From assembly GCA_001770015.1 (NCBI GenBank), contig MEQB01000038.1, positions 1 to 61,430 on the forward strand: 61,430 nt of DNA. The letters run 5' to 3'. This DNA is from Bdellovibrionales bacterium RIFOXYC1_FULL_37_79. GTDB taxonomy: Bacteria > Bdellovibrionota > Bacteriovoracia > Bacteriovoracales > Bacteriovoracaceae. Numbering within the stretch: position 1 is the first letter of the stretch; every line of letters begins with the position of its first letter. Shown here one piece after another: positions 2,826 through 53,215 of the stretch. Below the pieces are notes generated by a model that ran no database searches, had not been told where the DNA came from, and saw only the letters and a program-made list of their open reading frames with translations. A program made the translations under genes and the position numbers.

Positions 2826-3530
2826 ATGTTAACCATTAAAAGAGCAAAACCCCGGGACATTCATTTTGAAGGCGATATAAATCCTTATACACATGGTTCC
2901 GTGATTGTTTCATTTGGCAATACCAAGGTTCATATCACTGCGACGGTGGAGGAATCCGTGCCTCTATTTTTGAAAGATAAAAAACAAGGATGGGTTACTG
3001 CGGAGTATAGTATGTTGCCCGGAGCAACCAATACTAGAAGCAAGAGAGAACGAACTGTCATAAGCGGCAGAAGTCAAGAGATACAGCGCTTGATCGGTCG
3101 AAGTTTACGTTCAGTGGTGGATCTTAAGGCTTTAGGTGAGCGTTCTATCACCATAGATTGTGATGTATTAGTTGCTGATGGTGGAACGAGGACAGCCTCA
3201 ATTACCGGCGGATTTGTGGCCTTAAGCCTGGCTATAAAAAAACTTCTAAAAGATGGGATGATTCAAAACAATCCAATTAAAGAAAGTTTGGCTGCTATTA
3301 GTGTTGGAATCAATAAAGAGAATGAAATTATTGCCGATTTGAATTATGCAGAGGATTCAAGTTGTAAAACTGATATGAATATTGTTATGACCAGTAGTGG
3401 AAAATTTGTCGAGATTCAAGGTACCGCTGAGGATGGGGCGTTTAGTAGAGAAGAAAATAATTCTATGCTTGATTGTGCTTGGAATGCTATTCAAATAATT
3501 TTAGAAAAACAAAACCAGGTATTAAAATAA
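2826..3530 (+). CDS. rph: Ribonuclease PH
   Basis: Phosphate-dependent 3'-5' exoribonuclease that trims tRNA 3' ends. The 234-residue length is normal for the family. Characteristic segments are KVHITATVEESVP, GWVTAEYSMLPGAT, the RxxxEIQRLIGRSLR phosphate/RNA-binding block and DCDVLVADGGTRTASITG. The Shine-Dalgarno AAAGGAAGGG is well placed. It is followed directly by rdgB with a one-base TAATG overlap, a common rph-rdgB pairing, so the two are probably co-translated. Confidence 0.95.
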   Translation: MLTIKRAKPRDIHFEGDINPYTHGSVIVSFGNTKVHITATVEESVPLFLKDKKQGWVTAEYSMLPGATNTRSKRERTVISGRSQEIQRLIGRSLRSVVDLKALGERSITIDCDVLVADGGTRTASITGGFVALSLAIKKLLKDGMIQNNPIKESLAAISVGINKENEIIADLNYAEDSSCKTDMNIVMTSSGKFVEIQGTAEDGAFSREENNSMLDCAWNAIQIILEKQNQVLK

Positions 3531-4141
3531 TGGAATTTATACTGGCTTCGGGAAACCAGCATAAGGCACAAGAATTTGACGAGTTATTTGATAGTAAGAT
3601 TATCAAAATTATTCCAGCTCCTAAGTCCATAGATATTATCGAAGATGGGACCAATTATTATGAAAATGCACTCAAAAAGGCCAAAGGTTATTATGATATC
3701 TTTAAAACGCCGGTGATGTCTGATGATTCTGGAGTTGATGTTGAAGCTTTGCCGGGTGAACTTGGAATTTATTCTGCCCGTTTCGGAGGAGAAAAGATAA
3801 GTTTCCCAGAAAGGATTGAGCTTTTACTTGAAAAAATGCGGACCTTTTCAGGGCAAGAACGGCGGGCTTCTTTTACCTGTGTTTTGTGTTTTTACCAAAA
3901 TCCAGATGAAATTTATTATTTTACTGGTAAGATAAGGGGACTTCTAGATACCAGATCTCGAGGCGACCAGGGGTTTGGCTATGATCCTGTTTTTATTCCG
4001 GATGAACTCATGGAAAAAGATTTAACCTACGCCATGGCCCCAGATTGGAAAAAAGATAATTCCCATAGGGCAAAGGCATGCAAAAAGGCACAAGACTTCT
4101 TTTCTCAAACTCATTGCCAAAGTAAAAAAAGTACAATATAA
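3530..4141 (+). CDS. rdgB: RdgB/HAM1-type XTP/dITP diphosphatase
   Basis: House-cleaning pyrophosphatase that hydrolyses ITP, dITP and XTP to prevent their incorporation into nucleic acid. Recognised by the N-terminal LASGNQHKAQEF (ASxNxxKxxE), SDDSGVDVEALPGELGIYSARFGG, the GRGDQGFGYDPVFIP-type block (here RSRGDQGFGYDPVF) and SHRAKA near the C-terminus. The start codon is the ATG overlapping the rph stop (TAATG) rather than an upstream in-frame ATG inside rph. Length 203 residues is typical. Confidence 0.93.
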   Translation: MEFILASGNQHKAQEFDELFDSKIIKIIPAPKSIDIIEDGTNYYENALKKAKGYYDIFKTPVMSDDSGVDVEALPGELGIYSARFGGEKISFPERIELLLEKMRTFSGQERRASFTCVLCFYQNPDEIYYFTGKIRGLLDTRSRGDQGFGYDPVFIPDELMEKDLTYAMAPDWKKDNSHRAKACKKAQDFFSQTHCQSKKSTI

Positions 4142-4172
4142 ACTATCTTACTTCTATCCCAATATTATCTAT

Positions 4173-4249
4173 CGGAGCGTAGCGCAGCTTGGTAGCGCAT
4201 CTGCTTTGGGAGCAGAGGGTCGTTGGTTCAAATCCAATCGCTCCGACCA
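4173..4249 (+). tRNA. tRNA-Pro (anticodon UGG)
   Basis: A 77-base cloverleaf can be folded by eye. The acceptor stem is CGGAGCG / CGCTCCG (4173-4179 with 4239-4245), the anticodon stem TCTGC/GCAGA encloses loop TTTGGGA with anticodon TGG at 4207-4209, the T arm contains GTTCAAAT, and discriminator A plus encoded CCA end the gene. It follows rdgB and is followed by a strong hairpin terminator. Confidence 0.96.
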
Positions 4250-4282
4250 TTTTTATGTAGAATTCTTAAAGTTTCTTAAAAA

Positions 4283-4328
4283 CAAAAGCCTTATTAAGTT
4301 TCTAATTTAATGAGGCTTTTGTTTTTTT
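4283..4328 (+). terminator. Rho-independent terminator after tRNA-Pro
   Basis: CAAAAGCCTTATTAA pairs with TTTAATGAGGCTTTTG across a short loop, followed by a run of seven T. The T tract runs directly into the rhuM pseudogene start, which therefore has no room for a ribosome binding site. Confidence 0.85.
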
Positions 4329-4331
4329 AAC

Positions 4332-4707
4332 ATGTCGAATCTTTTCAGTACTCAGACAAGAGAAAAGGGCATCGAAGTTAGCTATGAAGATGAAAACCTC
4401 TGGCTCACTCAAAAAATGATGGCTGAACTATTTCAAGTGACACCACAAAATATTACGATTCATTTACAGGCTATTTATCAGGAAGGAGAACTTCACGAGG
4501 GGGCAACTTGTAAGGGATCCTTACAAGTTCAAAAAGAAGGGCAAAGTGAGATCAGTCGCCAACTTAAATTCTATAATCTCGATGCCGTTATCTCTGTTGG
4601 ATATAGGGTAAATTCTAAACGAGCTACTGAGTTTCGCCAGTGGGGCAACACGAGTTCTTAAAGAGTTCTCTATTAAAGGGTTTGGGCATGTTCGATGCAA
4701 ATTTTGA
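4332..4707 (+). pseudogene. Truncated, frameshifted rhuM-family gene (5' part)
   Basis: The first 105 residues match the N-terminal half of RhuM/virulence-type proteins: VSYEDENLWLTQKMMAELF, QNITIHLQAIYQEGEL, KFYNLDAVISVGYRVNS and RATEFRQW. An extra G near 4643 shifts the frame and stops at 4661. In the +1 frame the family sequence continues as ATRVLKEFSIKGF, then loses similarity and stops at 4707. The C-terminal half is missing, and no Shine-Dalgarno is seen because the gene abuts a terminator. A second rhuM fragment covering the following family segment lies at 8120-8389. RhuM biochemical function is unknown. Confidence 0.8.
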
Positions 4708-4770
4708 AAAAACGCAACAATTGTGGTGAAAGAAAATTGAAAGAATAGCGAAAGAATGTTATCATAAGAA

Positions 4771-5826
4771 ATGATTCATTTTAATCCTTCTTCATATAAT
4801 CTTGACTCAACAGCTATTAATCTTATATCTGAAATCTCTGTTTTTAATGGGGAATTATGTACGTCGGTTCGAGCGATTAGTGATGACTATCAAATACATA
4901 CTCTGGCCAATATTGATGCTGTTCACTATTCCACAAAAATTGAAGGAAATAAATTAACGCGAGACCAAGTTACCAAGGTCTTAGAAAAAAGTATTCCTCT
5001 CAAATCTTTTAATCATGATATTCAAGAAGTGTTAAACTATTCCAAAGCAAGAAGATTTATTTTTGATAATAAATCTCCCAAAATCGAACTTGATTTTATT
5101 TTAAAAGTACATGATCTTCTTCTCAAAAAGATAGTTAGAGGAAAATTAAAAGGACATTTTAGAGAGGCTCAAAACGTAATTAAAAATACTGGTTCTGGTA
5201 AAATTGTGTATATGCCTCCAGAGGCGGATGATGTTTTGCCCTTAATGAAAGGATTGGTGCACTATATTAACAAATTAAAAATAACAAAAGTGAGTCCGTT
5301 AGTCATTGCTCCACTACTTCATTTTGAGTTTGTAACAATACACCCTTTTATGGATGGAAATGGACGCTTGGCCCGTCTTCTTACCAATATGATTCTTTCA
5401 TCTGGAGGATTTGAGATAGAGAAGTATGCTGCACTTGAAAAACAGCATGAAAAAGATCGTGCTCGATATTACCAATCATTAGGAGTGCTTCAAGGGTACA
5501 ATTATTATGAAATGCCCCAAGGTCAGAATATTTCTTCATGGATTATTTATTGGCTTGAATGTTTGCGTGATACTTATAAGGAGGCATTAATGAGAGTCTT
5601 ACCGCTTTCGCAAAATGTCTTTTCCGAGGAAATTATTCATAATGATCGCCTTACCAAGGCAATATCCTTTTTTAAAAGGTATATAACTATTAAGGCCGCT
5701 GACTATGCGACCATGATGGACCTTGAGAGAACTCAAGCGGTAGCAGACCTGAATGTTTTAATTGAGAAAGACATTATTGAGAAAATTGGGGGAGGAAGGT
5801 CAACGGTCTATAGGATTAAAAAATGA
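4771..5826 (+). CDS. Fic-domain protein with N-terminal inhibitory helix and C-terminal winged helix
   Basis: Fic enzymes usually transfer AMP from ATP to hydroxyl side chains of target proteins. The active-site loop HPFMDGNGRLAR (HPFx[D/E]GNGRxxR) is complete. The N-terminal motif STKIEGN matches the (S/T)xxxE(G/N) inhibitory helix, so activity should be auto-inhibited. The C-terminal about 70 residues (KAADYATMMDLERTQAVADLNVLIEKDIIEKIG) look like a winged helix-turn-helix, the common Fic/DUF4172-like architecture. 351 residues is full length. It stands alone between the rhuM remnant and the first transglycosylase cassette. Its target is unknown; it could be a stand-alone regulator or a toxin-like module. 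Confidence 0.88.
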   Translation: MIHFNPSSYNLDSTAINLISEISVFNGELCTSVRAISDDYQIHTLANIDAVHYSTKIEGNKLTRDQVTKVLEKSIPLKSFNHDIQEVLNYSKARRFIFDNKSPKIELDFILKVHDLLLKKIVRGKLKGHFREAQNVIKNTGSGKIVYMPPEADDVLPLMKGLVHYINKLKITKVSPLVIAPLLHFEFVTIHPFMDGNGRLARLLTNMILSSGGFEIEKYAALEKQHEKDRARYYQSLGVLQGYNYYEMPQGQNISSWIIYWLECLRDTYKEALMRVLPLSQNVFSEEIIHNDRLTKAISFFKRYITIKAADYATMMDLERTQAVADLNVLIEKDIIEKIGGGRSTVYRIKK

Positions 5827-5942
5827 AAAGGATTATGCATAGATGGATTTCATTTTGGGCTTTAAAATATGACATAATTGAGCAACAAACTCTAATGATT
5901 CATGGTTATCATTTAAAGCGTATTAAAAATTAGGATTTAATA

Positions 5943-6947
5943 ATGTCAAGTAAAGAAGAAAAGATAGAAATTAAGCAATTTTTAAAGGTCTTTTTTGAGC
6001 AAGAAGATAATATTACATTTTATTTTCTTAAAAAGAGCAAAATTAATTCTGCGTTTGAATACAAAATACCATTTAAGACAAAGAAAAAATCTAGCACTAG
6101 AAAAATTCAGTCATTGCAAAAGAAGATTCAGCAAGAGATGGAAATTCCATGGCAGTTTGAGCATTGGAGTAAATTCATTGGCAAAATAATTCCAGAATCA
6201 AAAGTTTATAAAATTCCCTTTTTAGACATAGAAGATATTGAAGTTAAAAATCCATGGAGAGTTTGTTCTGTTGGTGAACACTGGGTTCGCAGACACCCGA
6301 AACACCTACACTCGGGGAAAGTAACAGATCACGATGGACATTGCCGTAAAAATTCGTCAAAAAAAGATTTACTAGGTGCTGATGAAATGGATCTTATCGC
6401 AACCAAGAAAATCTTTCTTAATCCGAAAGTTAAAGTCTCTAGCAAAGATTTGGGATTAGGTTTAAGTCTAGAGAGTCAGAATCGATATGACAAGCTTATC
6501 TCTGGATGGACTGCGTATTGGAATGATGTTTTTAGCTTCGATAATCCTTTGCATCCAAATCATGTGAAGGCCCTGATTGCCACAGAATCAACTTTTAACC
6601 CAAAAGCAAAAGCTTCTAATCCTAAACCAATCGGAATGGCAAGGGGATTGATGCAATTAACAGAAAGAACCACAAGATGGGCAAAGGACCATAACGTACG
6701 AGAATACAGAAATCAGTATATTGATCTTGAATATGAAGATTTATGGGAACCCAATCGTAATATTGCGTTTGGAGTCAGACATATTTTCCGAAAAAGGGAA
6801 ACAGCTAAATGGATTTTGAAAAGAGACCCGACATGGTTTGAAGTATTAATGGATTATAAGGGGAAGCTGCGAAGTAAAACATCAGAAACAAAAGATGTTA
6901 GAGAAAAATTGCAAAAAATATTCGAGACTTTGGGAATGGAAGAGTGA
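5943..6947 (+). CDS. Lytic-transglycosylase (SLT-like) protein with Cys/His module, copy 1
   Basis: 334 residues, no signal peptide or membrane segment. Residues 1-100 are a charged alpha/beta region of unknown family. Residues 104-136 form a Cys/His-rich module (NPWRVC, GEHWVRRH, DGHCRKN; C108, H113, H118, H130, H133, C134) that could bind metal. Residues 186-325 resemble a goose-lysozyme/SLT fold: E215 in ALIATES is the expected catalytic acid, followed by GLMQLTERT (235-243) and NRNIAFGV (271-278). It should cleave peptidoglycan glycan strands. The gene overlaps the next one by 4 bases (GTGA), so they are translationally coupled. A paralogue lies at 8476. Assignment of the SLT domain is by motif; the N-terminal regions are not recognised. 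Confidence 0.72.
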   Translation: MSSKEEKIEIKQFLKVFFEQEDNITFYFLKKSKINSAFEYKIPFKTKKKSSTRKIQSLQKKIQQEMEIPWQFEHWSKFIGKIIPESKVYKIPFLDIEDIEVKNPWRVCSVGEHWVRRHPKHLHSGKVTDHDGHCRKNSSKKDLLGADEMDLIATKKIFLNPKVKVSSKDLGLGLSLESQNRYDKLISGWTAYWNDVFSFDNPLHPNHVKALIATESTFNPKAKASNPKPIGMARGLMQLTERTTRWAKDHNVREYRNQYIDLEYEDLWEPNRNIAFGVRHIFRKRETAKWILKRDPTWFEVLMDYKGKLRSKTSETKDVREKLQKIFETLGMEE

Positions 6948-7915
6948 AAATAATTATCAAGATCCTGGCATTATTTTTATTTTTTAACCTGTTTGCGAAG
7001 GAGAACTCAACATGGATTAAGAGTACCTACTTTAGGGGGTATGATCCTATCACAAATAAACTGCATAGCACAAAAGATGTTGAACAACTTGCTGAAAGAT
7101 TAAAAATGAATAACATTAAATATGCTTATATTTTTGCAGGTCCGTATCAAAAAGATGGACATTTACCAGATTATACTTTTTCCAATAAAGCAAAAGAAAA
7201 TATTGCAATTCTTAAAAAGATATATCCAAAAGTAAAGATTTTGCCTTGGATTGGTGGAGTTCAAAATAAGACAGTTTATCTCGAACGAAAGGAATGGGTA
7301 AAAAATGCAATCATTGATACAGTAAAACTTATAAAAACGATGCCTGTTGATGGAATACATTTGGATTTAGAATATGTTATTTATTCTGGAGCTAAATTTA
7401 ATTATAATAAATTGAGTCCTGGGAGCTATAGTCAGTATTGGGCCTTATTTCATAAGGAGCTGAGACTTGCCTTACCTGAGTCATTTATTTCGAGTGTTAT
7501 TGTATCTATTGCTTCAGGTACAAAACCCTGGAAGTATAAGCATACATTAAATGAAATAAAAGAGATTTCTTCTTTTGTAGATCAAATATCATTCATGTTT
7601 TACGAAACAGGTCTAATGGATTTGAAAGATTATGATGATAATTTAAAAGAACAAATTCTAATGATTAAAGAGTTAAAAAGTTTGCCTACAAATCGAAGTC
7701 AATATTTAATTGGGTTAGGGATTTTTAATGAAGAACCAAATCTTAAAGCTTTTCGCGATTTGGGTTTTAAAAATCTTCCTTTGACTTTAAAACTTGTGCA
7801 AAAAACTGAAAACAATACAAAGCAAAAAGAAGTCATTGTGGATGGATTTGCTATTTTTTGTGAGTGGATGACTGCTGAACAAGAATGGAAGCAATTGCGT
7901 AGTTATTTAAAATAA
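6944..7915 (+). CDS. Secreted glycoside-hydrolase-18-like protein
   Basis: GTG start overlapping the upstream TGA; the hydrophobic N-terminus (KIIIKILALFLFFNLFAKE) is a signal peptide. The body looks like a TIM barrel with the family-18 signature DGIHLDLEY (DxxxDxE), where the last Glu is the expected proton donor, and later QISFMFYETG. Family 18 enzymes cleave beta-1,4-GlcNAc linkages in chitin or related glycans. Co-translation with the transglycosylase-like protein suggests joint action on, or protection from, cell-wall glycan, but the substrate is not shown. 323 residues, apparently complete. Confidence 0.7.
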   Translation: MKIIIKILALFLFFNLFAKENSTWIKSTYFRGYDPITNKLHSTKDVEQLAERLKMNNIKYAYIFAGPYQKDGHLPDYTFSNKAKENIAILKKIYPKVKILPWIGGVQNKTVYLERKEWVKNAIIDTVKLIKTMPVDGIHLDLEYVIYSGAKFNYNKLSPGSYSQYWALFHKELRLALPESFISSVIVSIASGTKPWKYKHTLNEIKEISSFVDQISFMFYETGLMDLKDYDDNLKEQILMIKELKSLPTNRSQYLIGLGIFNEEPNLKAFRDLGFKNLPLTLKLVQKTENNTKQKEVIVDGFAIFCEWMTAEQEWKQLRSYLK

Positions 7916-7950
7916 AAAAAGGGAACATACATTCAAGAAAGCTTCAGGTT

Positions 7951-8112
7951 TTTGGAGGAAAAACCACTTTTTTCTCCCAAAATTTGTTCCACTATTTTTT
8001 CCTCCCATTTTTGCTGCTTTTTTCTTAAAACCCTTGATAATGTTGAGTTCTAGAAATGAATCTTGGAGGAAAAATGTTCGAGCCTCCTGCACATAGAGGT
8101 CGACCATTTTTA
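7951..8112 (+). repeat. Dispersed hairpin-rich repeat, copy A
   Basis: Contains GGAGGAAAAA (7954-7963) facing TTTTTCCTCC (7996-8005), a second TTGGAGGAAAAATG block at 8063, and the segment TCGAGCCTC...GGTCGACCATTTT ending at 8110. AAAATGTTCGA and TCGACCATTTT are near-perfect inverted repeats, giving a terminal stem-loop. Copy B, with the same order of blocks, is at 15489-15639. The TTGGAGG-ATG part could also act as a ribosome binding site for a short frame. Nature unknown. Confidence 0.6.
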
Positions 8113-8119
8113 ATACGAT

Positions 8120-8389
8120 ATGAGACAGATTTCAATGATTCTTATATTTCTGATAGCATCTTTAGTTTTTGCTTCGAGCAATAAAACTGTCTGCAAATTT
8201 CCAAATCTTGAGATCGAACGACTAAATGAGTTTTTAGTAAAAGGATTTGTTCTTGATGACGAGAGATTAAAAGAGGGTCGCTCTATAGGTAAAAGCTATT
8301 TTCAAAAACTCATAGAGCGTATTCGGGATATCAGGACTTCTGAACGTCAGTTTTACCAAAAGATCACTGATATCTATGCCACTAGCTAG
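8120..8389 (+). pseudogene. Signal-peptide-like leader joined to an internal rhuM fragment
   Basis: The first 19 residues (MRQISMILIFLIASLVFAS) look like a Sec signal peptide. From about residue 35 the sequence NEFLVKGFVLDDERLKEGRS, then KSYFQKLIERIRDIRTSERQF and YQKITDIYATS, is the middle of the RhuM family, beginning exactly where the 5' remnant at 4332-4707 loses similarity. The usual C-terminal third is absent. The frame is intact, so a small product could be made, but the architecture is most simply a chimera produced by recombination. Confidence 0.65.
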
Positions 8390-8475
8390 ATAATCTGCTA
8401 ATACTTCTTTTCACTTCAATAATTTCAATAATATACTTTCCAACAAAGCATCATCTTTTTGTAGTGTGAGTTTTG

Positions 8476-9426
8476 ATGGAAAAGTTAAAAAAAGAAAAAA
8501 TTAAATCAATTCTGAGTCAGTTTTTCTTGAAAGTCGATGAGGCAGAGTTTTACTTTGTGAAAAGTCTCAAGCAATTTTCAGACTTGATTCTTGTAAGATC
8601 AAAAAAAATTGATTCAAAAAAATTATCAGAAGTAAATCTACTGCTAAAAAAAGAATTGGCCAATCCTGCAATAGAGCTTTTGAGTTGGATAGATACGGTT
8701 GGTGGAATAATCCCAAAGAAAAATGTTTATAAAATTCCTTTTTTTAGCACAGATGAAATTAAAGAAATAAATCCATGGAGAGTTTGCCCGATAGGTGAGC
8801 ATTGGGTAAGAAGACATGATCGACAAAAAAAGCATCTTGAAGATGTGGATGGGCATTGCCGAAAAAATAAGTCAAAAAAAGATCAATTAAAGGGCGATGA
8901 GATCGATTTGATTTCCAATCATGATCTTTTTAAAAATCCAAAATTAAAAACCACGCCAAATAATCTTGGATTTGAAAAAGTTGGGAAAAATGGAAATCAG
9001 TTTGATAATTTTATTAATGGTTGGGTTGCTTATTGGAATGATGTATTTAAAACCGATCCGCCACTTCATCCCAATTTTGTAAAAGCGTTGATGGCGACAG
9101 AGTCTGGTTTTGATCCCAAATCAATCGCGGCTAATAAAAATAAAAAGATTGGTTTTGCGCGTGGACTGATGCAAGTTACTGAACGAACTCAAAGGCAACT
9201 CGCAGGAGATGAAAAGGAATTAAAAGATCATCTTGTGATTCTAGATGATGAAGAAGTTTGGGATCCCAATAAAAATATTTGCGCTGGTGTGAGATGGCTT
9301 TTTCGAAAAAGAGAAATTCTAAAGTCTCAAATAAATCGAGATCCTACATGGAAAGAAGTTCTAATGGGATATAAGGGAAAAGTGGGAAGTAAAACCAACG
9401 AAACAAAGAAAGTACAAAAAAATTAA
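8476..9426 (+). CDS. Lytic-transglycosylase (SLT-like) protein with Cys/His module, copy 2 (3' frameshift)
   Basis: Paralogue of the 5943-6947 protein over its whole length and likewise without a signal peptide. Shared features are the charged N-terminal region, KIPFF, the NPWRVCPIGEHWVRRH and VDGHCRKN Cys/His module (C104, H109, H114, H127, C128), catalytic Glu E209 in ALMATES, GLMQVTERT and PNKNICAGVRWLFRKRE. The open frame ends KKVQKN, but adding one base to the A7 run at 9416-9422 restores KLNEYFEKLGIN and a stop at about 9459, matching the copy-1 C-terminus. So the last 11 residues are lost by a one-base deletion; the catalytic region is intact. A secreted protein gene follows at once. 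Confidence 0.72.
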   Translation: MEKLKKEKIKSILSQFFLKVDEAEFYFVKSLKQFSDLILVRSKKIDSKKLSEVNLLLKKELANPAIELLSWIDTVGGIIPKKNVYKIPFFSTDEIKEINPWRVCPIGEHWVRRHDRQKKHLEDVDGHCRKNKSKKDQLKGDEIDLISNHDLFKNPKLKTTPNNLGFEKVGKNGNQFDNFINGWVAYWNDVFKTDPPLHPNFVKALMATESGFDPKSIAANKNKKIGFARGLMQVTERTQRQLAGDEKELKDHLVILDDEEVWDPNKNICAGVRWLFRKREILKSQINRDPTWKEVLMGYKGKVGSKTNETKKVQKN

Positions 9427-9459
9427 ATGAGTATTTTGAAAAATTAGGAATAAATTAAA

Positions 9460-10026
9460 ATGAGAAATTTCACAATTGTTTTATTTGTATTTAATTCTTT
9501 TCTTGCTCAAGCGAAGTCTCCTTTGCAGGAAAAATATCCTCATGGATTATTAACAGATGATTATGGTGTTTTGACAGAAGCCGATCTTGTTTATGCGGCT
9601 AAAGGAGTTGAGCGTACTCCGTACAAGATAGAAGACGGAAGTTCAGCTTATCAACGCTGGCAATGTTTCGAAACGAAAAAAATGCTATTTAGATATTCGA
9701 CTTGGCGAGACGATTATACCGATTTTGGCCGTGGAGCCACTTTATGTGATTATTCATTTCAAGTTAATGATGAACAAGGCGTTCGCCATCTTTATGTCGC
9801 AAGACGGGCTAAGGAACTTGTGGACTGTCGTGAACTTTTTAAAGAGTGGAAAAAAGTGAGAAAAGATTCAAAGTATACATGTATTCTTGGTGAACCTGGG
9901 AGCTATGAAAATAAAGAAAAGGGCTGGATTTGGGGGAAGACAAAGACAAAAAGTAAGTGCATGTCTTATTTTGTTGGAGAATGTGATTCTGAAAAAAAGT
10001 TAAAAGAGTATGAAAATGAAAAATAA
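9460..10026 (+). CDS. Secreted protein of unknown family, partner of transglycosylase copy 2
   Basis: 188 residues with an N-terminal signal peptide (MRNFTIVLFVFNSFLAQAK). The mature part has five cysteines (WQCFE, TLCDY, VDCRE, YTCIL, SKCMS, with a sixth in GECDS) and many aromatic and charged residues; no family is recognised. It starts right after the restored stop of the transglycosylase gene, the same slot that holds the GH18-like gene in the first cassette. A periplasmic protein paired with a signal-less wall hydrolase resembles an immunity protein, but that is inference. A decayed copy of its 3' end lies at 10118-10153. Confidence 0.6.
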   Translation: MRNFTIVLFVFNSFLAQAKSPLQEKYPHGLLTDDYGVLTEADLVYAAKGVERTPYKIEDGSSAYQRWQCFETKKMLFRYSTWRDDYTDFGRGATLCDYSFQVNDEQGVRHLYVARRAKELVDCRELFKEWKKVRKDSKYTCILGEPGSYENKEKGWIWGKTKTKSKCMSYFVGECDSEKKLKEYENEK

Positions 10027-10085
10027 AGAGGTTTCAATTATCATTTTAAAGAAGGTTTTCTCAGACAGTGAGCTATAAGAAAATT

Positions 10086-10112
10086 CAGTTATCCGAAAAT
10101 TTTGGATAACTG
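10086..10112. other. 27-base near-perfect palindrome
   Basis: CAGTTATCC (10086-10094) and GGATAACTG (10104-10112) pair perfectly and the centre AAAATTTT is self-complementary, with a single unpaired G. It sits between the secreted-protein gene and a duplicated 3' fragment of that gene. It has no T tract, so it is more like a protein-binding site or a recombination scar than a terminator. Confidence 0.5.
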
Positions 10113-10117
10113 CCAGT

Positions 10118-10153
10118 GATTCTGAGAAAAGGTTAAAAGAGAAAGAAAATTAA
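10118..10153 (+). pseudogene. Decayed 3'-end copy of the 9460-10026 gene
   Basis: Reads D-S-E-K-R-L-K-E-K-E-N-stop, against D-S-E-K-K-L-K-E-Y-E-N-E-K at the end of the secreted-protein gene, with clear nucleotide similarity over about 36 bases. No upstream part of the copy is visible. It implies that a related gene once stood here and was mostly deleted, or that the 3' end was duplicated. Confidence 0.55.
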
Positions 10154-10324
10154 CATAAGAATTAAAACAAAAATAAAAAGTTAATTATCCTATTATAAAG
10201 TGAAGACGGAGAGAGTTGCTCAATTTAGGAAATGAGTTTTTAAAGATAATCGCTTTGTTAAACACTAACGTTTGACAAACAAATTTTTTGATGGTTGTTT
10301 AGAAAAAATTGTAAAGGAAGTATT

Positions 10325-11227
10325 GTGAAATCAATCTTAATTTTGTTTTTTTTACTGCCTGTGTTGACGCATACAATCTCTGGAGAGGTGATGAAATTTA
10401 AACTTGATAAAGCTAAGCAAAATTCGAAAGGTACTATTTTATTAATTCAAGGTACGGCTGCCCAAAATATTGATGGTCAACTTCCTGATGAAAAAATTCA
10501 AAAGATTGTAAAAGAAAAAGATCCAACTCATTACATAATCCAATCCACTTATAAAAATCTTTCTGAAAAGCTTAACGAACTGGGATGGGATACTGTTAGA
10601 TATACAAGGACAGGGGTTTATCAAGATCATGTTGATTATGAAGAATACAAAAAAACAGACTTAAAGAATATCATGGATCAGCTCAGCTCAATTTGGAAAG
10701 AGTTACCAAAAGATAAGCCACGGATTATTTTTGCATGGAGCGGAGGTTCTGTTCATGCTTCTTTACTGCCATTAGAAGAAGCTAGTGCTGTTATTTTATT
10801 GGGGGCTTTTTCAACCAAGAGGGTTGATGTATATCGTTTAAGATTGAAGACTCCAGAAGAAACATTAAAGTTTGAAAATGAATTAAAAGTATTGCTATCT
10901 CAAGAAAAGAACCAACAGAAGAGAAATGAACTCGAAGGACCGAATTATCCGTTTTCAAGATTTTTTGATGAAAATAATTTAAATGAAAATTGGACATATT
11001 ATAGGAAGTACCCAAAGCTTCCGATGTTAATTTTACATGGAGATAGGGATGAAGAAGTTCCTCTTTCTCAGTCTAAGGTATGGAAAGAAAAATTAAAAAA
11101 GAATGATATCACCTTATTAATTAAACCGCAGGCAAATCATGCTTGGGGAATAGCGGGAAATCGGCCAGATATGGAAGATTTAGCAATTGAAATCAATAAA
11201 TGGCTAAGCACGAAAATAAAAATCTGA
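10325..11227 (+). CDS. Secreted alpha/beta hydrolase
   Basis: A serine hydrolase fold: nucleophile elbow FAWSGGSVHA (A-x-S-G-G), acidic residue in LHGDRDEEVP and histidine in QANHAWG, in the order expected for the catalytic triad. The GTG at 10325 is chosen because AAAGGAAG precedes it and the resulting N-terminus (KSILILFFLLPVLTHTISG) is a signal peptide; an upstream in-frame TTG would bury it. About 300 residues. Substrate unknown; relatives include esterases and peptidases of the dienelactone hydrolase/S9 type. It stands alone in the accessory block. Confidence 0.75.
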   Translation: MKSILILFFLLPVLTHTISGEVMKFKLDKAKQNSKGTILLIQGTAAQNIDGQLPDEKIQKIVKEKDPTHYIIQSTYKNLSEKLNELGWDTVRYTRTGVYQDHVDYEEYKKTDLKNIMDQLSSIWKELPKDKPRIIFAWSGGSVHASLLPLEEASAVILLGAFSTKRVDVYRLRLKTPEETLKFENELKVLLSQEKNQQKRNELEGPNYPFSRFFDENNLNENWTYYRKYPKLPMLILHGDRDEEVPLSQSKVWKEKLKKNDITLLIKPQANHAWGIAGNRPDMEDLAIEINKWLSTKIKI

Positions 11228-11347
11228 AAAACAATTATCCAGAAAGAACCAGATTAACGACCTGTCAGTGAATAAAATGATAGAGAATCGATGAAATGCG
11301 CTAATGAATGGCCCTTCATTTCGACGGTCGATTTAAAAAATTCAAAT

Positions 11348-11884
11348 TTAAGATTCGTTTTTAATCCCTATTCTTCGTCGTTTATGAGGTAATGGAGGAG
11401 TTTCGACTTCAAGGATATCAAGTCGCTCGAATACAATCCGAAATACTTTATCCACATCTTTTTTAAATTCAAGAGTTCCTTTTTCCAGTTTTTCCATTTT
11501 ATCAATTAGAGATTCATCTGAGGATAGAAGTTTCCTGATTTTTACGAAAGTTCTCATAATAAGTACATTGACTCTAATGGCCTGCTTACTATTAAGAACC
11601 GATGACAGCATGGCCACTCCTTGTTCAGTGAACATATAGGGGAGATATTTGCGCTTTGCAATTGATCCTCTAAAGGTCACAAATTGTGACCTTAATGATT
11701 CTCGCTCATCTTTGGTAAGCTGAAGCACAAAATCTGATGGGAAACGGTCAGGGTTACGCCTTATAGTTTGGTTGAGAACTTTTGTTTCGACTCCGTACAT
11801 TTGGGCCAAATCGGAGTCCAACATCACTTTTTGATTTCGAACTAAATAAATCAATCTTTCAATGTTTGCAGGTGTGATATCCAT
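11348..11884 (-). CDS. ORF6N-domain DNA-binding protein
   Basis: N-terminal ORF6N domain, a phage/mobile-element associated DNA-binding module: IERLIYLVRNQKVMLDSDLAQMYGVETKVLNQTIRRNPDRFP, SDFVLQLT, then KYLPYMFTEQGVAMLSSVL. A short coiled-coil-like tail ends in a basic PPLPHKRRRIG stretch. Start at the internal ATG (11884), which has AGGAAAA upstream and begins MDITPANIERL as in the family; the upstream extension of 24 residues is unlikely. Such genes usually travel with mobile elements; it is oriented opposite to its neighbours. Confidence 0.85.
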   Translation of the reverse strand: MDITPANIERLIYLVRNQKVMLDSDLAQMYGVETKVLNQTIRRNPDRFPSDFVLQLTKDERESLRSQFVTFRGSIAKRKYLPYMFTEQGVAMLSSVLNSKQAIRVNVLIMRTFVKIRKLLSSDESLIDKMEKLEKGTLEFKKDVDKVFRIVFERLDILEVETPPLPHKRRRIGIKNES

Positions 11885-12069
11885 TAATGTTTTCCTGAAC
11901 GTGATTAAAAAGTAAGAAAATCCACATAACTCAATTTCCGAGCGAGAACAAATCATTTTTGTAAGATGGCGTGAAAGTTTTCAATTCTGAAACGAGTTAA
12001 GACAATACTCACTATTTTTTGTCATTTTTAATAATCCACCAATATTTCTTTCCATTTAAATAATTCGTG

Positions 12070-12110
12070 ACTACTAAGAACTTAGTAGACATCTACTAAT
12101 TAATTAGTAG
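12070..12110. promoter_or_regulatory. Two palindromic BlaI-type operators
   Basis: CTACTAAGAACTTAGTAG (12070-12087; 8-base arms, 2-base centre) and the perfect 20-base palindrome TCTACTAATTAATTAGTAGA (12091-12110) lie side by side just upstream of the repressor gene. Both share the arm CTACTAA/TTAGTAG. BlaI/MecI repressors bind such dyads as dimers, so autorepression of the blaI-blaR pair is expected. Confidence 0.8.
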
Positions 12111-12133
12111 ATACTATCTTCACAGGAGTGTAT

Positions 12134-12523
12134 ATGGCAAAAAAAATTAAAATTGATAAACCACTAACTGAAGTTGAACTTCAACTTATGAATGTCATTT
12201 GGTCACTTGGTTCATGCACCATAAAGGAAGTGCAAAATGAAATAAATAAACATCGTGAATTGGCCTACACATCGGTTGCAACGATCATGAAGATTCTTGA
12301 GACAAAAGGCATTTTAACAAGTATAAAAAATGATAAAGCACATATCTATTCACCTCAAATTACTAAAGAGGTGTATGAGGCCCAAAGCTTGGATCATTTG
12401 GCAGAAAATTTATTTGGTGGTGATCCATCAATGATGGTTATGCGTCTCATAAATGATGCAAACATTTCTAAAAAAGATTTAGAAGTAATAAGGAAAGTTT
12501 TAGATACCAGGATCGATTCATGA
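12134..12523 (+). CDS. BlaI/MecI-family repressor
   Basis: Winged-helix repressor with the family pattern LTEVELQLMNVIWSLGSCTIKEVQNEIN, AYTSVATIMKILETKGIL (recognition helix) and a C-terminal dimerisation region (FGGDPSMMVMRLINDANISKKDLEVIRKVLD). ATG at 12134 with CAGGAG upstream; a GTG six bases earlier is too close to the Shine-Dalgarno. It overlaps the receptor gene by 4 bases (ATGA), so repressor and sensor are co-translated. Release of repression would come from proteolysis triggered by the receptor. Confidence 0.9.
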   Translation: MAKKIKIDKPLTEVELQLMNVIWSLGSCTIKEVQNEINKHRELAYTSVATIMKILETKGILTSIKNDKAHIYSPQITKEVYEAQSLDHLAENLFGGDPSMMVMRLINDANISKKDLEVIRKVLDTRIDS

Positions 12524-14547
12524 TTACTTTCATTCAAATTAATTTTTTAATCGTAATAACTTATGTTTTATTTTTTGGATTTCAAAAGTGTAGTGCTATT
12601 TTAAATTTTAAATCATCCGCAATTTCAAAATTACGGGTGGCCCAAGCTTTGCTAATTCTTTCTTTATTAACTCCTCTTATGATGAAACTCATTCCAAGCG
12701 AGAGACATTCTTATGCCAATTACATTCAAATCGAAGAAGAACGTATAGATACCAATCTTAAAACAATTGAAGCAAAGGCACATTATGTTGTTAACCAAAC
12801 AGCTACGAAAATTAGTGAGATTAATAATGTCACCCATTTCGATTTGGGTAGTATTTTGTTAGTTGCTTGGATTTTTGGCTTTTTTTTGTTTTTATCAAAA
12901 CTTTGTATTAACTATTTTAAATTAAAAAAGGTTTTTCTTGGTTCTGTGTCGCTTAAGAAAAATTCTAAAATTAAAATCAACATAAGTGATAAAATTGTCA
13001 TTCCTTTTTCTGCGAGATTACTTAATTCTTTTTGGGTGGTTCTTCCTGTATCGGTTTTAAATAATAGAACTGATAAGAATTTGGTAATTAAGCATGAATT
13101 TCAACATCACCGACAGGGCGATACAACTTGGGCCTGGTTGATAGAAATTTTAACGTGCTTATTTTATTTAAACCCTGCAATTTATTTTTGGAAAAATATT
13201 ATAATTGAACTTCAAGAATTTTCTTGTGATGAAGCACTTACTGGCCAGAAAGTTGTTTCATCCCGGGATTATGGAAGCTGTCTACTTAGAGTGGCAGAGA
13301 CAGCGCTTTTAAACCGCCGAATGTATGCCGGTACAACATCCATGGCAGTGGTTTTTAAGAACTCAAAATATTTTAAAACATTTTTATTAAGGAGAATTGA
13401 AATGATCATGGAAGAAAAAAAATCAAAACAAAAGTGGATTTCCATTTATACTGGTCTGCTTATTACTGCAATGATGATTACAGTTGCCTACGGAGTTGAA
13501 AAACTATCAATGGCCCAGTCTAAAAAAATTAATGCTGGAAAATTTATTGGTGATACAGAGGTTCAAAAAATTGCTGATGATGTTTTAACTCGTGCGCTAA
13601 AGGATACAAAGTCAGTTGCTGGTTTTATCATTGTTGCTGATCCAACTACTGGAAAAATTCTTGCGGTATCCAATATTGATAAGAAAAATCCCAAAAAAGA
13701 CCACTGGTCCCTCGCTGAATTGATAGAACCGGCATCGTTTGCAAAAACATTGGTTATTGCTCAAGCAATAGAAAATAATTTAACTAACCCAAGTGATACC
13801 TATGCTTGTGAAAATGGTTTTTATAAGTATAACGATTTAACATATCATGATTGGAAAAAGGGTGGCTGGAAAAATTTAACAACAACACAAACCCTGGCAA
13901 ACTCCAGCGATATTTGTAGTATAAAGATTGGTGAAAAAGTTGGTGAAAAAAATCTGGAAATGATGGTTGAAAATTTCGGCTTTGGACAAAATGGAGTGGC
14001 GAAAGATTTTCCAGAGGCGAAAATTGGTGATGTTCCTGAATTAGGAAAACAATTTCTTCCAAGAGTAACTTTGGGTCGTGCGTACAGACTTTCTCCAATT
14101 GAAATTATGCAGGCCTACGGAGCAATCGCTAATGGTGGAAATCTGATGAAACCGATTTATGGAGATGTACAAAAGCCAGAAGTATTGAGAAGGATTCTTT
14201 CAGAAGAAAGCGCGAAAACGATGAGAAATATGCTACAGGAAGTTGTCCTAGCAGGAACTGCAACTAAAGCAATCAGCAAACGTTACTCGACTGCCGGTAA
14301 AACAGCGTCGGCGCGGCTTGATGTTTATAGAAAAACTGATTGGTATGGAGGGGACCATCACGCAAATTTTGCAGGATTCGTAGGATTTGCTCCTGTAACA
14401 AGTCCGAAAATTCAAGTTCTAGTTGGAATAATTAATCCTAATACAGAAAAGAGTGGGGCGCATGGTGGATGGCATGCGGCTCCGGTATTTAGAGAAGTTA
14501 CAGAAAATGTTTTAGCATACCTGAAAGTTGCGCCGGATAAAATTTAA
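12520..14547 (+). CDS. BlaR1/MecR1-like receptor: M56 metalloprotease fused to FtsI-like penicillin-binding domain
   Basis: 675 residues. The N-terminal third has several membrane segments and an M56 zinc protease motif HEFQHHRQGD followed by EFSCDEAL. Another membrane segment (about 305-325) leads to an extracytoplasmic domain that aligns with FtsI-type transpeptidases, not with class D beta-lactamases. SFAK stands in the SxxK position, SSD where SxN is expected, KTA in place of KTG, plus NFAGFVGFAP near the end. Likely role: sensing beta-lactam or wall fragments by acylation of the SFAK serine and cleaving the BlaI-type repressor. No beta-lactamase gene follows; a terminator closes the operon. 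Confidence 0.82.
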   Translation: MITFIQINFLIVITYVLFFGFQKCSAILNFKSSAISKLRVAQALLILSLLTPLMMKLIPSERHSYANYIQIEEERIDTNLKTIEAKAHYVVNQTATKISEINNVTHFDLGSILLVAWIFGFFLFLSKLCINYFKLKKVFLGSVSLKKNSKIKINISDKIVIPFSARLLNSFWVVLPVSVLNNRTDKNLVIKHEFQHHRQGDTTWAWLIEILTCLFYLNPAIYFWKNIIIELQEFSCDEALTGQKVVSSRDYGSCLLRVAETALLNRRMYAGTTSMAVVFKNSKYFKTFLLRRIEMIMEEKKSKQKWISIYTGLLITAMMITVAYGVEKLSMAQSKKINAGKFIGDTEVQKIADDVLTRALKDTKSVAGFIIVADPTTGKILAVSNIDKKNPKKDHWSLAELIEPASFAKTLVIAQAIENNLTNPSDTYACENGFYKYNDLTYHDWKKGGWKNLTTTQTLANSSDICSIKIGEKVGEKNLEMMVENFGFGQNGVAKDFPEAKIGDVPELGKQFLPRVTLGRAYRLSPIEIMQAYGAIANGGNLMKPIYGDVQKPEVLRRILSEESAKTMRNMLQEVVLAGTATKAISKRYSTAGKTASARLDVYRKTDWYGGDHHANFAGFVGFAPVTSPKIQVLVGIINPNTEKSGAHGGWHAAPVFREVTENVLAYLKVAPDKI

Positions 14548-15488: not shown

Positions 15489-15639
15489 CTTGGAGGATAA
15501 AACCAAGCCTCCTGCAAGGCCTAAAATTGGAGGAAAAAATAAATTTTCTTTGTAAAACTTCCTCCGTTACTTTTTTCCTCCAAAATCGGTTAACTTGAGG
15601 AAAAATGATCGAGCCTCAGGAATATAGGTCGACCATTTT
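15489..15639 (+). repeat. Dispersed hairpin-rich repeat, copy B
   Basis: Shares its block order with copy A at 7951-8112: TTGGAGGATAAAAC plus AGCCTCCTGCA (15490-15516), a perfect 13-base inverted repeat TTGGAGGAAAAAA (15527-15539) / TTTTTTCCTCCAA (15571-15583), then GAGGAAAAATGATCGAGCCTC and GGTCGACCATTTT to 15639. Terminal arms AAAATGATCGA / TCGACCATTTT pair. It occupies most of the gap between the lipoprotein gene and hpf; nothing else is seen there. Confidence 0.6.
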
Positions 15640-15677
15640 CCCATTTCTCTTTTTTTAGTATTAAATTCTATGGTGGT

Positions 15678-51256: not shown

Positions 51257-51277
51257 TTTATAAACAGGAGAATGATA

Positions 51278-52135
51278 ATGAAAACGATTATATTTGCCCT
51301 TTTGTTTGTGCTGGCATCCAGATTCAGTCTGGCAGATTCCTGCGTTGCCCATAAAGCGGTTCCCAGCATTGATACCCTTTTGGCCCAAAAGGGGGCATCA
51401 TTTTGTCCGGGTGGATGCCAAAATAGTTATAAAATCCCAGCTGGCTCAACCCAGAGTATCTGGTATATGGGGAAATGTAGAAAAATTACTAATTTAAGTC
51501 TTGCTCAACCGGTATTTATACCTGCGAAAAATGAAGGCTTTTTTTCTTCTCAAGGTGTCGCCAAAGGAGATCCTAATCTCAAATGTGTTGGTGATTTCTA
51601 CCACACCAAAAATCAAGATGCAGGGAAAGAATGTCAGAGAGGTGTTGCTATAAAAGTTGAAGAGTGTGATAACCCTTACGTCGTTGAAGAGATTGTGGAA
51701 GTATGTTATCCAGGATGTAAATATACTTATGAGGAGGATCAAGAAGTGGATACCAGTGTTGATCCCCCTGTTGTTATAAAAGAGGGATTTAAGGAAACAA
51801 GATATTTTGGAGGGACTGGCACATGTACCTATGAAAAGAGAATCATACTGATGTGGGATGGTATAGGTCGCCATAATCCAAATGACAGTGCTGAAGTAAT
51901 CACCAGCGCCCCTTACGTGATGAATGAAAATTATGATAAAGTTTCATGTACAAAGGATGCTCCAGCTTGTTCTGGTAGTGCTGGGCACTGGATATGTTAT
52001 ACATGTAAGCCAGGGGAAGGGCTGGTCGGTTGTGATAATAAATCAGGCGATTGGAACGATGTTGGTCAACCCCCGGGTGAGCCCGCTCCCAAGGGCCACC
52101 CTACCAAAAGTGGAGGAACCACTGTTAGTCATTAA
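51278..52135 (+). CDS. Secreted Cys-rich protein, tandem paralogue 1
   Basis: 285 residues: signal peptide (TIIFALLFVLASRFSLADS) and 15 cysteines in the mature part at positions matched in the neighbour gene. Shared blocks are FCPGGCQ (FCPGKCQ in copy 2), SIWYMGKCRK, PVFIPAKNEGFF, VCYPGCKYTY, KETRYFGG, MWDGI, HDPNDS/HNPNDS and the tail HPTKSGGTTVSH. No family recognised; likely disulfide-rich and extracytoplasmic. The ATG at 51278 is chosen because its spacing to AGGAG matches copy 2. Own terminator follows. Confidence 0.7.
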   Translation: MKTIIFALLFVLASRFSLADSCVAHKAVPSIDTLLAQKGASFCPGGCQNSYKIPAGSTQSIWYMGKCRKITNLSLAQPVFIPAKNEGFFSSQGVAKGDPNLKCVGDFYHTKNQDAGKECQRGVAIKVEECDNPYVVEEIVEVCYPGCKYTYEEDQEVDTSVDPPVVIKEGFKETRYFGGTGTCTYEKRIILMWDGIGRHNPNDSAEVITSAPYVMNENYDKVSCTKDAPACSGSAGHWICYTCKPGEGLVGCDNKSGDWNDVGQPPGEPAPKGHPTKSGGTTVSH

Positions 52136-52351: not shown

Positions 52352-53215
52352 ATGAAACTGATGATAATGGTTTTTCTGCTTATGACAGTGAGTAGGATTT
52401 GGGGAGAAGCAGATATTTGTAAAAGTCCAAACAAAGTTCCGGACATAGATGCAGCCTTGGTCCAATTTGGGGCAGAGTTTTGCCCTGGCAAATGCCAGGA
52501 TATATATAAAATTCCTGCCGGAAATACCCAGAGCATTTGGTATAAGGGGAAATGTAAAAAGGTTATTAATTTAAGTAATAGCCAGCCAGTTTTTGTTCCG
52601 GCCAAAAATGAGGGATTTTTTTCAGCAAAGGGTGTTATCAAAGGACATAGCACTTTAAAATGTGTTGGTGATTTTTATAATACAAAAAAAACAGAGGCTT
52701 CCAAAGAATGTAAAAGAGGTGTTGCTATAAGAGTTGAAAATTGTGCTAATCCTTATGTAGCAGAAGAGGTTGAAAAAATTTGTTACCCAGGTTGCAAATA
52801 TACTTATGTACAGGACCAAGAAGTCGATATTAGCGTTAATCCTCCGAAGGTTATAAAAGAGGGGATCAAAGAAACAAGATATTTTGGAGGAGATGGTTCC
52901 CCTTGTACCTATTATAAAAAAATAAAATTGATGTGGGATGGCATCAGTCAACATGATCCTAATGATAGCAAAGAAGTTATTACAAGTGTGGCATACGTTT
53001 TAAATGAAAATTACGATAGAATTTCTTGCGTAAGATCAGTTCCAAATTGCAAGGGGGCAGCAGGCAAATGGATATGCTATAACTGTAATCCCGAGGAAAC
53101 CTATGCAGGATGTGATAATAAAACAACAGGATCTTGGAATAATGTGGAGTCGCCTGATGAGCCAGTTGATCTAGGACATCCAACCAAAGGCGGAGCAACC
53201 ACAGTCAGCCATTAA
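52352..53215 (+). CDS. Secreted Cys-rich protein, tandem paralogue 2
   Basis: 287 residues; signal peptide (LMIMVFLLMTVSRIWGEA), same 15-cysteine framework and block order as paralogue 1, ending HPTKGGATTVSH. Roughly two thirds of residues agree by eye. Separate promoter block and terminator show that each copy is its own transcription unit, so the pair arose by duplication of a whole unit. ATG at 52352 with CAGGGG 8 bases upstream. Function unknown. Confidence 0.7.
   Translation: MKLMIMVFLLMTVSRIWGEADICKSPNKVPDIDAALVQFGAEFCPGKCQDIYKIPAGNTQSIWYKGKCKKVINLSNSQPVFVPAKNEGFFSAKGVIKGHSTLKCVGDFYNTKKTEASKECKRGVAIRVENCANPYVAEEVEKICYPGCKYTYVQDQEVDISVNPPKVIKEGIKETRYFGGDGSPCTYYKKIKLMWDGISQHDPNDSKEVITSVAYVLNENYDRISCVRSVPNCKGAAGKWICYNCNPEETYAGCDNKTTGSWNNVESPDEPVDLGHPTKGGATTVSH

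Follow-up and report, generated by a model that had tools for sequence, protein, structure and literature searches.

Signal-less lytic transglycosylases with exported, putatively inhibitory partners and frequent toxin-antitoxin linkage in Bdellovibrionota

Introduction

The principle of a signal-less wall hydrolase kept in check by an exported inhibitor is already known. The wall effectors of the type VI secretion system (T6SS) Tse1/Tsi1 and Tse3/Tsi3 consist of an enzyme without a signal peptide, encoded beside the gene of an exported immunity protein. In Xanthomonas citri, according to PMC10933484, the signal-less lysozyme XAC2609 reaches the cell's own periplasm without a working type IV secretion system (T4SS), and a cell that lacks the periplasmic inhibitor is damaged by it whether or not that system functions. 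Here we describe two gene pairs of similar layout, SLT1 with P0002 and SLT2 (P0003) with P0004, together with the enzyme family to which SLT1 and SLT2 belong. They lie in a window of 61,430 bases (the whole stretch of DNA analysed), contig C38 of the 4.36-Mb draft genome of Bdellovibrionales bacterium RIFOXYC1_FULL_37_79, the nearest named relative found being the Bacteriovorax metagenome assembly STB_52. We propose, with a probability of roughly 0.68, that each pair is a wall lysin with an exported inhibitor, moving between genomes as one unit.

The T6SS pairs share the layout of this family, but its order lacks VipB in 129 genomes. XAC2609/XAC2610 is alike in that a cognate inhibitor in the periplasm, the role that we infer for the partners of the family, goes with a wall hydrolase lacking a signal; it differs in its T4SS and XVIPCD signal, whereas the window's own genome has no VirB4, the family has several unrelated partner families and toxin-antitoxin (TA) operons often lie upstream. 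Bd3460, which guards against the wall enzymes Bd3459 and Bd0816, is likewise an exported protein of a predatory lineage; there (PMC4686830) the enzymes carry signal peptides, the inhibitor is an ankyrin protein and the system is tied to prey entry, in all of which the family differs. HEPN/MNT, Phd/Doc, HigBA, BrnTA, AbiE and related TA modules are the kinds of operon found ahead of, or fused to, the SLT genes of the family. For TA modules that come with a wall lysin, the nearest literature parallel that we found is PMC7157771, which deals with TA pairs in Tn3 transposons and cites lytic transglycosylases as passengers of a Xanthomonas transposon. The broken-hairpin toxins (PMC12419801) are signal-less toxins, including lysozymes, with a short domain proposed to be a trafficking module. 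That domain is C-terminal and tends to occur without immunity proteins, whereas the HxR segment of our family precedes the SLT domain and a partner is present. In the open-licence literature on TA systems with lytic transglycosylases, on HEPN/MNT and on Bdellovibrionota, we found no description of the family or of its docking to TA operons. What is new is the phylum-wide spread, the variety of partners, the signs of pair transfer and the TA docking.

SLT1 and SLT2 belong to a phylum-wide family of predicted lytic transglycosylases

SLT1 and SLT2 match the SLT family of Pfam (PF01464) with E-values of 2.8e-10 and 3.4e-11 (40.2 and 43.2 bits against a curated cut-off of 21.3). They are 49% identical and carry E215 and E209, respectively, in a conserved TES context, which bears out a first-pass annotation of the bare sequence that had called them paralogous SLT-like proteins with these two catalytic residues. 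Neither enzyme has a hydrophobic N-terminus, and P0002 and P0004 each have one; all export calls in this work come from our own hydropathy rule, not from SignalP. Both enzymes are built of three parts, a degenerate MNT nucleotidyltransferase domain (residues ~1–100 in SLT1, 1–96 in SLT2), an HxR motif segment (~101–152 and 97–146) and the SLT domain.

In a family alignment of 74 members with both ends closed, PF01464 is matched by 73 at E ≤ 0.1, and E209, S210, G230, Q233 and Y299 (SLT2 numbering) are nearly invariant. The family most likely consists of lytic transglycosylases with an intact SLT domain, predicted to cut peptidoglycan. Its members occur in a long form of about 320–350 residues and in shorter forms, and nearly all carry, ahead of the SLT domain, a segment of ~50 residues with the pattern CPxGxHWVxxHxR...VDxHCRKNP, in which CPxG can be replaced, for example by MAPPG, and which is lost or cut in a few members. 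A second phylum-wide family combines a Sec-like signal, the same HxR segment and an HExxH motif, and its gene is directly followed by a lipoprotein-like gene (loci L146, L149–L151, L154–L156, L264, L265, L267, L269, L270, L274, L275 with the own-genome copy, and L277–L280). As the segment also occurs in this Sec-exported family, it is unlikely to be an export signal only.

The window's own genome encodes four relatives of SLT2: SLT1, an N-terminal-only copy on contig C11, and one shorter SLT protein each on C28 and C63, the genes of these last two being each accompanied by an overlapping lipoprotein-like or signal-peptide gene. The family is present in 38 of the 129 genomes of the order, with a maximum of seven matches per genome, and, at E ≤ 1e-20, in 116 of 368 genomes and 75 of 181 genera of the phylum. 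No relative of P0003 was found among 72,556 plasmid and 50,697 phage records (E ≤ 0.001), and none was confirmed by a pattern scan of IMG/VR. P0001–P0004 gave no match to the anti-phage defence models of PADLOC; when four relatives were run, those fused to MNT and Doc matched PDC candidate models, the MNT-fused one also a type I specificity model. By eye, two other loci (L102 4142–5232 and L088 4635–5785, both on the minus strand) encode signal-less proteins of an RNNNPGNIR type, which we take to be lysozyme-like, overlapping an exported-looking gene that lies downstream in L102 and upstream in L088; L102 also has a Fic-like gene upstream.

An exported neighbour accompanies nearly every enzyme

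An exported partner stands beside 114 of 118 family genes, counted as open reading frames (ORFs) of at least 150 residues with a closed 3' end under the wider of our heuristic rules; the count under a stricter initial rule was 58 of 79. The 118 genes comprise 78 from loci L036–L113 and the window and 40 from L192–L231, the latter from other families, hand-picked from a score-ranked list for the phylum rather than drawn at random; several sequences are near copies, and the gene downstream in L231, not exported by the first heuristic, is counted under the wider rule. All but four of the 114 partners, which are convergent, lie downstream in the same direction, and 90 of these 110 overlap the SLT gene, in 37 cases by exactly 4 nucleotides (nt) and in 12 by 16 nt. 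When one fixed heuristic is applied throughout, the downstream gene is exported for 49 of 70 family genes against 19 of 340 background genes in these loci, and a coupled start (–60 to +15 nt) together with export is found for 46 of 70 against 5 of 340. By gene order and predicted export, an exported neighbour is almost obligatory for the family.

The four genes left partnerless by the script are a short duplicate (L042 10326–10994), a short SLT gene of 170 residues (L208), L066 and L093; the neighbour of L093 looks exported by eye and falls below the threshold. L066 (G000:C11:110320-110751) encodes a degenerate MNT domain and part of the motif segment, with neither an SLT domain nor an exported partner. 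This exception agrees with the partner being tied to the SLT domain. Relatives of P0004 were found in 13 of the 129 genomes, exclusively SLT-bearing ones, at 18 places, 16 of them beside an SLT gene or fragment; the remaining two resemble orphan partners. The genome of Bacteriovorax sp. STB_52 (G013) has a broken counterpart of SLT2 whose partner is intact; the partner can thus outlive the enzyme.

The first-pass annotation had also read from the window that each enzyme lacks an export signal and is immediately followed by the gene of a signal-peptide protein, different in the two cassettes, and had likened the arrangement to effector-immunity modules. The ORFs and the hydropathy heuristic agree with the first statement, the second genes do differ (a GH18 match in P0002, a Cys-rich protein without a profile match in P0004), and the layout extends to the family, both in the frequency of partners and in the unrelated partners found beside close enzymes. 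Homologues consistently devoid of a partner, or an N-terminal domain from a housekeeping wall-remodelling family, would have spoken against that likeness; the former is contradicted by the counts above, and the N-terminal domain proved to be the degenerate MNT nucleotidyltransferase.

The partners fall into unrelated families

A survey of second genes, as the first-pass annotation had suggested, divides the 114 partners at E < 1e-4 into four clusters of 70, 38, 3 and 3 members. The largest is the Cys-rich family of P0004, in which cysteines are conserved in 57, 51 and 50 of 65 rows; P0004 itself has no match at E ≤ 1 in Pfam, PHROGs or NCBIfam. Against PDB profiles, the Cys-rich partners gave Rab-21 matches alone, at E 0.08 or worse, and these were rejected as no convincing structural relative. 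The scan of all partners covered 71 of 73 candidates (two were dropped); the separate Cys-rich set comprised 40 rows and the FG-GAP-type set 24 of the 38 members.

The FG-GAP-type family (38 members) shares an FG-GAP-like DLNxDGxxE segment. PliI (PF16743), a periplasmic protein that inhibits i-type lysozyme, is matched by 3 of the 24 scanned members, with a best E-value of 0.0095 that lies below the curated cut-off; P0002 and P0004 match neither this family nor, in Pfam, ankyrin repeats. In the PDB search the FG-GAP-type partners matched mostly integrin repeats, and chain 3od9, which we take to be PliI, appeared at E 0.17 behind better integrin matches. The chain listed with it, 4pj2, is PliI-Ah according to PMC10933484, where PliI, XAC2610 and Tsi1 are described as having a common fold topology and a loop that blocks the active site.

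P0002 matches GH18 (PF00704) at 4.7e-10 with 40.1 bits against a cut-off of 29.6. This type was found three times (the window, G070 and G160), each time beside an SLT gene, convergently in G070. GH18 enzymes have the catalytic motif DxxDxDxE; the three partners have DGIHLDLE or DGVHLDFE, which keep the Glu and the Asp two residues before it and have His for the preceding Asp, a replacement that makes enzymatic activity doubtful.

Unrelated partners stand beside closely related enzymes. The enzymes of L051 and L052, 79% identical, have an FG-GAP-type and a GH18 partner, those of L044 and L045 (76%) a Cys-rich and an FG-GAP-type partner, and those of L192 and L193 (68%) a GH18 and a Cys-rich partner. 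This exchange points to one common role for the partners, most simply inhibition, and the exported partner most likely blocks its wall enzyme.

Many SLT genes are coupled or fused to toxin-antitoxin operons

Upstream sequence of at least 500 nt was available for 103 family genes. In 73 of them a gene on the same strand lies no more than 150 nt upstream, and in 49 cases it overlaps the SLT gene or comes within 15 nt of it. TA-type or commonly TA-linked genes make up 57 of these 73, as judged by Pfam where matched and otherwise by eye. About 40 are left when DUF4143, STAS-like/ATPase, AlbA-like, BRO-like, RhuM and DUF2283 genes are not counted. A Pfam scan of 60 of the 67 upstream genes of the order set (the other seven, mainly very short genes or genes at contig ends, were excluded) found NTase_sub_bind (HEPN) in 11, CopG antitoxin and HTH_3 in 7 each, AAA_14 in 6, DUF4143 and BrnA in 5 each and HATPase_c in 3; non-TA families among the matches listed (25 of 51 families) are, for example, Recombinase (3) and Ham1 (1). 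Scans of single upstream genes add Fic/Doc, AbiEii, HicB, ParE and DUF2283. As a control, none of the 56 ORFs of at least 100 residues lying beyond 12 kb in the window resembles any of the 73 upstream proteins.

TA domains are also fused in frame to SLT: MNT (Polbeta in 12 of 74 members, plus L220), DUF4325 (3 of 74), HepT (L227 and L229) and Fic/Doc (L225, where the family profile, unlike Pfam at E ≤ 0.01, detects the SLT part). Where the module is HEPN/MNT, MNT/HepT or ATPase/DUF4325, the fusion gene lies behind the gene for the module's other half. The N-termini of a group of 14 members including SLT1 and SLT2, aligned without the MNT-intact rows and without an intermediate N-terminus (L047 2836–3891), match the MNT profile in hhalign with a probability of 94.1 and an E-value of 1.3e-7, whereas a DUF4325 control reached a probability of 0.1. 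Taken singly in hmmsearch, the two window N-termini match the MNT profile at 4.7e-5 and 4.6e-4. The MNT active-site motif GS...DxD, present by a strict pattern in 8 of 29 long-form N-termini, is missing from those of SLT1 and SLT2, and no HEPN gene adjoins the window SLT genes, the upstream genes being Fic and a RhuM remnant. Since its MNT domain is degenerate and an adjoining HEPN gene is lacking, the TA fusion in the window is probably a relic.

Both pairs lie in sharply bounded blocks shared with other genomes

A blastn comparison of window positions 3001–14000 with the fetched loci delimits two blocks, and at both block borders the similarity ends sharply. Block 1, which holds SLT1, the GH18-like partner and little else, is 88.6% identical over 2035 nt to DNA of a genome from another family of the phylum (G160), while block 2 is 85.6% identical over 1664 nt to JAQTTZ010000013.1 of Bacteriovorax sp. 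STB_52. The flank shared with a genome of the same genus (G127) is 83.4% identical; block 1 thus resembles a remote genome more than the flank resembles that of a close relative, which is what transfer would produce. The block in G160 starts about 100 nt behind a tRNA-Pro gene. In G127 the homology to the window runs until 4254, just past tRNA-Pro, and a different SLT pair follows ~1.2 kb further on, on the other strand. A tRNA gene lies within 2.5 kb of 40 of 112 partnered SLT genes outside the window, a raw count that is not scaled to the genome-wide tRNA rate. Among the 400 commonest 12-mers, none occurs in at least 7 of the 114 upstream or 110 downstream border stretches; as no border motif emerged, we claim no transfer mechanism. 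On the evidence of these alignments, the pairs seem to move between genomes as two-gene units.

Proposed mechanism and competing explanations

If each pair is a mobile lysin with its inhibitor, the lysin would be produced in the cytoplasm, where its substrate is absent, and would meet peptidoglycan after leakage into the periplasm of its producer, or after being released or delivered into neighbouring cells. In the periplasm it would cut glycan strands unless blocked by the Sec-exported partner, and the pair could punish its own loss, kill partnerless cells, or both. Coupling to a TA operon may set the dose, anchor the pair against loss, or raise its level on TA derepression. A stronger and more tentative version, which we consider possible but on balance doubtful, makes the whole a lysis-armed TA system: the TA operon would sense stress or infection and control the dose, and with its last gene coupled or fused to the signal-less lysin, TA activation would end in lysis of the cell or in the release of a kin-discriminating wall toxin; the exported inhibitor would pick the survivors, with TA types and inhibitors interchangeable around a constant lysin.

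Several observations weigh against the proposal that the pairs are mobile lysin-inhibitor units docked to TA operons. The TA link is not obligatory, since 30 of the 103 genes lack a co-directional neighbour in the 150 nt ahead of them, 16 of the 73 close upstream genes are of a non-TA kind, and block 1 in G160 follows its tRNA with no TA gene between. The likeness to PliI stays below the Pfam cut-off and is confined to the FG-GAP-type family, to which the window partners do not belong; 3od9 is absent from the searches with two FG-GAP sub-profiles, and XAC2610 from all. The retained DxE end of the GH18 partners would suit a second enzyme no less than an inhibitor. Structure prediction was too poor for use, with a mean pLDDT of 40 for P0003 with two further rows and of 48 for P0002 alone. 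Finally, no route out of the cytoplasm for the enzyme was found among the machines searched, and VirB4 is commoner in SLT-bearing genomes, which would favour delivery.

The last point leads to the explanation that the enzymes are antibacterial effectors, delivered with their immunity proteins in place by a dedicated contact-dependent machine (T6SS, T4SS or a contractile particle). Their layout is the same as that of T6SS and X-T4SS wall effectors, and VirB4 (PF03135), found in 23 of the 129 genomes, occurs in 12 of 38 SLT-bearing genomes against 11 of 91 others. We nevertheless regard it as unlikely. VipB was detected in none of the 129 genomes, the window's own included; a phage-type sheath (PF04984) was detected in 5 at E ≤ 0.001, one of them over the cut-off and none SLT-bearing; the own genome has no match to VirB4, the sheath or a GpD/VgrG-type protein (Phage_GPD), and 26 of the 38 SLT-bearing genomes have no VirB4, with the reservation that draft genomes may miss genes. 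None of these machines explains the family, and the type VI route named as an example by the first-pass annotation finds no support here. As an alternative, that annotation had suggested enzymes against the prey wall, with factors for self-protection, in a predatory lineage. Bd3460, with Bd0816 and Bd3459, is a precedent for such self-protection (PMC4686830). This precedent and the nearest named relative, a Bacteriovorax assembly, agree with the idea, but the prey endopeptidases known from that source have signal peptides, which the family enzymes lack, P0004 has no ankyrin match, and one would not expect core predation genes to swap partners or to be linked to TA operons. The accessory distribution of the family (38 of 129 genomes in the order, 116 of 368 in the phylum) weakens a core role in predation in particular, and prey-wall enzymes are in our view quite improbable.

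Still less probable is a pair of cooperating wall enzymes, or a wall-recycling pair, with the partner as helper. The DxE end kept in all three GH18 copies agrees with such a role, which the His for Asp before it puts in doubt; GH18 aside, the best enzyme match among the 71 scanned partners has an E-value of 0.0086 (one member, RGL11_C), and a helper would leave unrelated partners beside close enzymes, and SLT proteins without an export signal, unaccounted for. That the enzymes are domesticated prophage endolysins gathering in tRNA-linked islands, the neighbours and TA genes being hitchhikers, seems very improbable indeed: PHROG endolysin and transglycosylase matches and the nearby tRNA genes (40 of 112) would suit it, yet P0003 has no relatives in the phage and plasmid collections or in the IMG/VR scan, and the in-frame TA fusions and recurrent 4-nt and 16-nt partner overlaps are too regular for hitchhiking.

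A mobile lysin-inhibitor unit is thus the reading that we retain. It would place an effector-immunity-like wall-lysin pair across a phylum known for predators, apparently without the usual injection machines and with many kinds of TA operon as docks. If inhibition is confirmed, the family would offer a natural set of lysin-inhibitor combinations, among them a candidate inhibitor with a GH18 fold, and a direct means to ask whether TA operons carry and regulate toxins that act outside the cytoplasm.

Layout of the window

The guanine-cytosine content of the window varies between 32 and 42% in 2-kb steps. Table 1 gives the features around the two pairs.

Table 1. Features at the variable locus of the window.
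Feature	Position	Strand	Basis and remarks
tRNA-Pro(TGG)	4173..4249	+	ARAGORN; variable stretch begins here
RhuM remnant	4332–4661		PF13310
Fic protein (Fic core; Fic_N match below cut-off)	4771..5826	+	PF02661, 9.3e-20; TA-type, 116 nt upstream of SLT1
Block 1 (SLT1 and GH18-like partner)	5898..7930	+	blastn
SLT1, predicted signal-less lytic transglycosylase, 334 residues	5943..6947	+	ORF and Pfam; E215, Pfam match 204–283
Partner 1 (P0002), exported, GH18-like, 323 residues, GTG start	6944..7915	+	4-nt overlap with SLT1
Second RhuM remnant	8120–8389		PF13310
Block 2 (SLT2 and Cys-rich partner)	8391..10039	+	blastn
SLT2 (P0003), predicted signal-less lytic transglycosylase, 316 residues from ATG	8476..9426	+	E209, Pfam match 197–312
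Partner 2 (P0004), exported, Cys-rich, 188 residues	9460..10026	+	Largest partner family
Partial copy of the 3' end of partner 2, 38 nt	10116..10153	+	Repeat comparison

SLT2 has an in-frame TTG at 8473. The 3' remnant of an extra copy reported by the first-pass annotation is real, if tiny, its 38 nt being 87% identical to the 3' end of partner 2 at 9983–10020. The stretch from Fic through SLT1 to the GH18-like gene is bracketed by the two RhuM remnants, as though the block had been inserted into, or had replaced part of, a RhuM gene, and in L035 a broken RhuM-like gene lies, by eye, directly behind the counterpart of partner 2. An imperfect interspersed palindrome (AAAAATG.TCGA ... TCGACCATTTTT) occurs at 8070–8111 and 15601–15640 of the window and just left of 3915 in L035; it thus stands left of block 2 in the window and in the L035 genome alike, and recurs at 15.6 kb.

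Right behind the second pair, positions 10325–11227 encode an exported-looking alpha/beta-hydrolase-like protein (PF00326, 1.1e-6). Further on, at 12128–14547, a BlaI-like repressor gene overlaps an ORF of 675 residues that appears by eye to be a fusion of a BlaR1-type M56 peptidase with a penicillin-binding transpeptidase. Two tandem paralogues at 51272–52135 and 52352–53215 encode, again by eye, exported-looking Cys-rich proteins of 287 residues.

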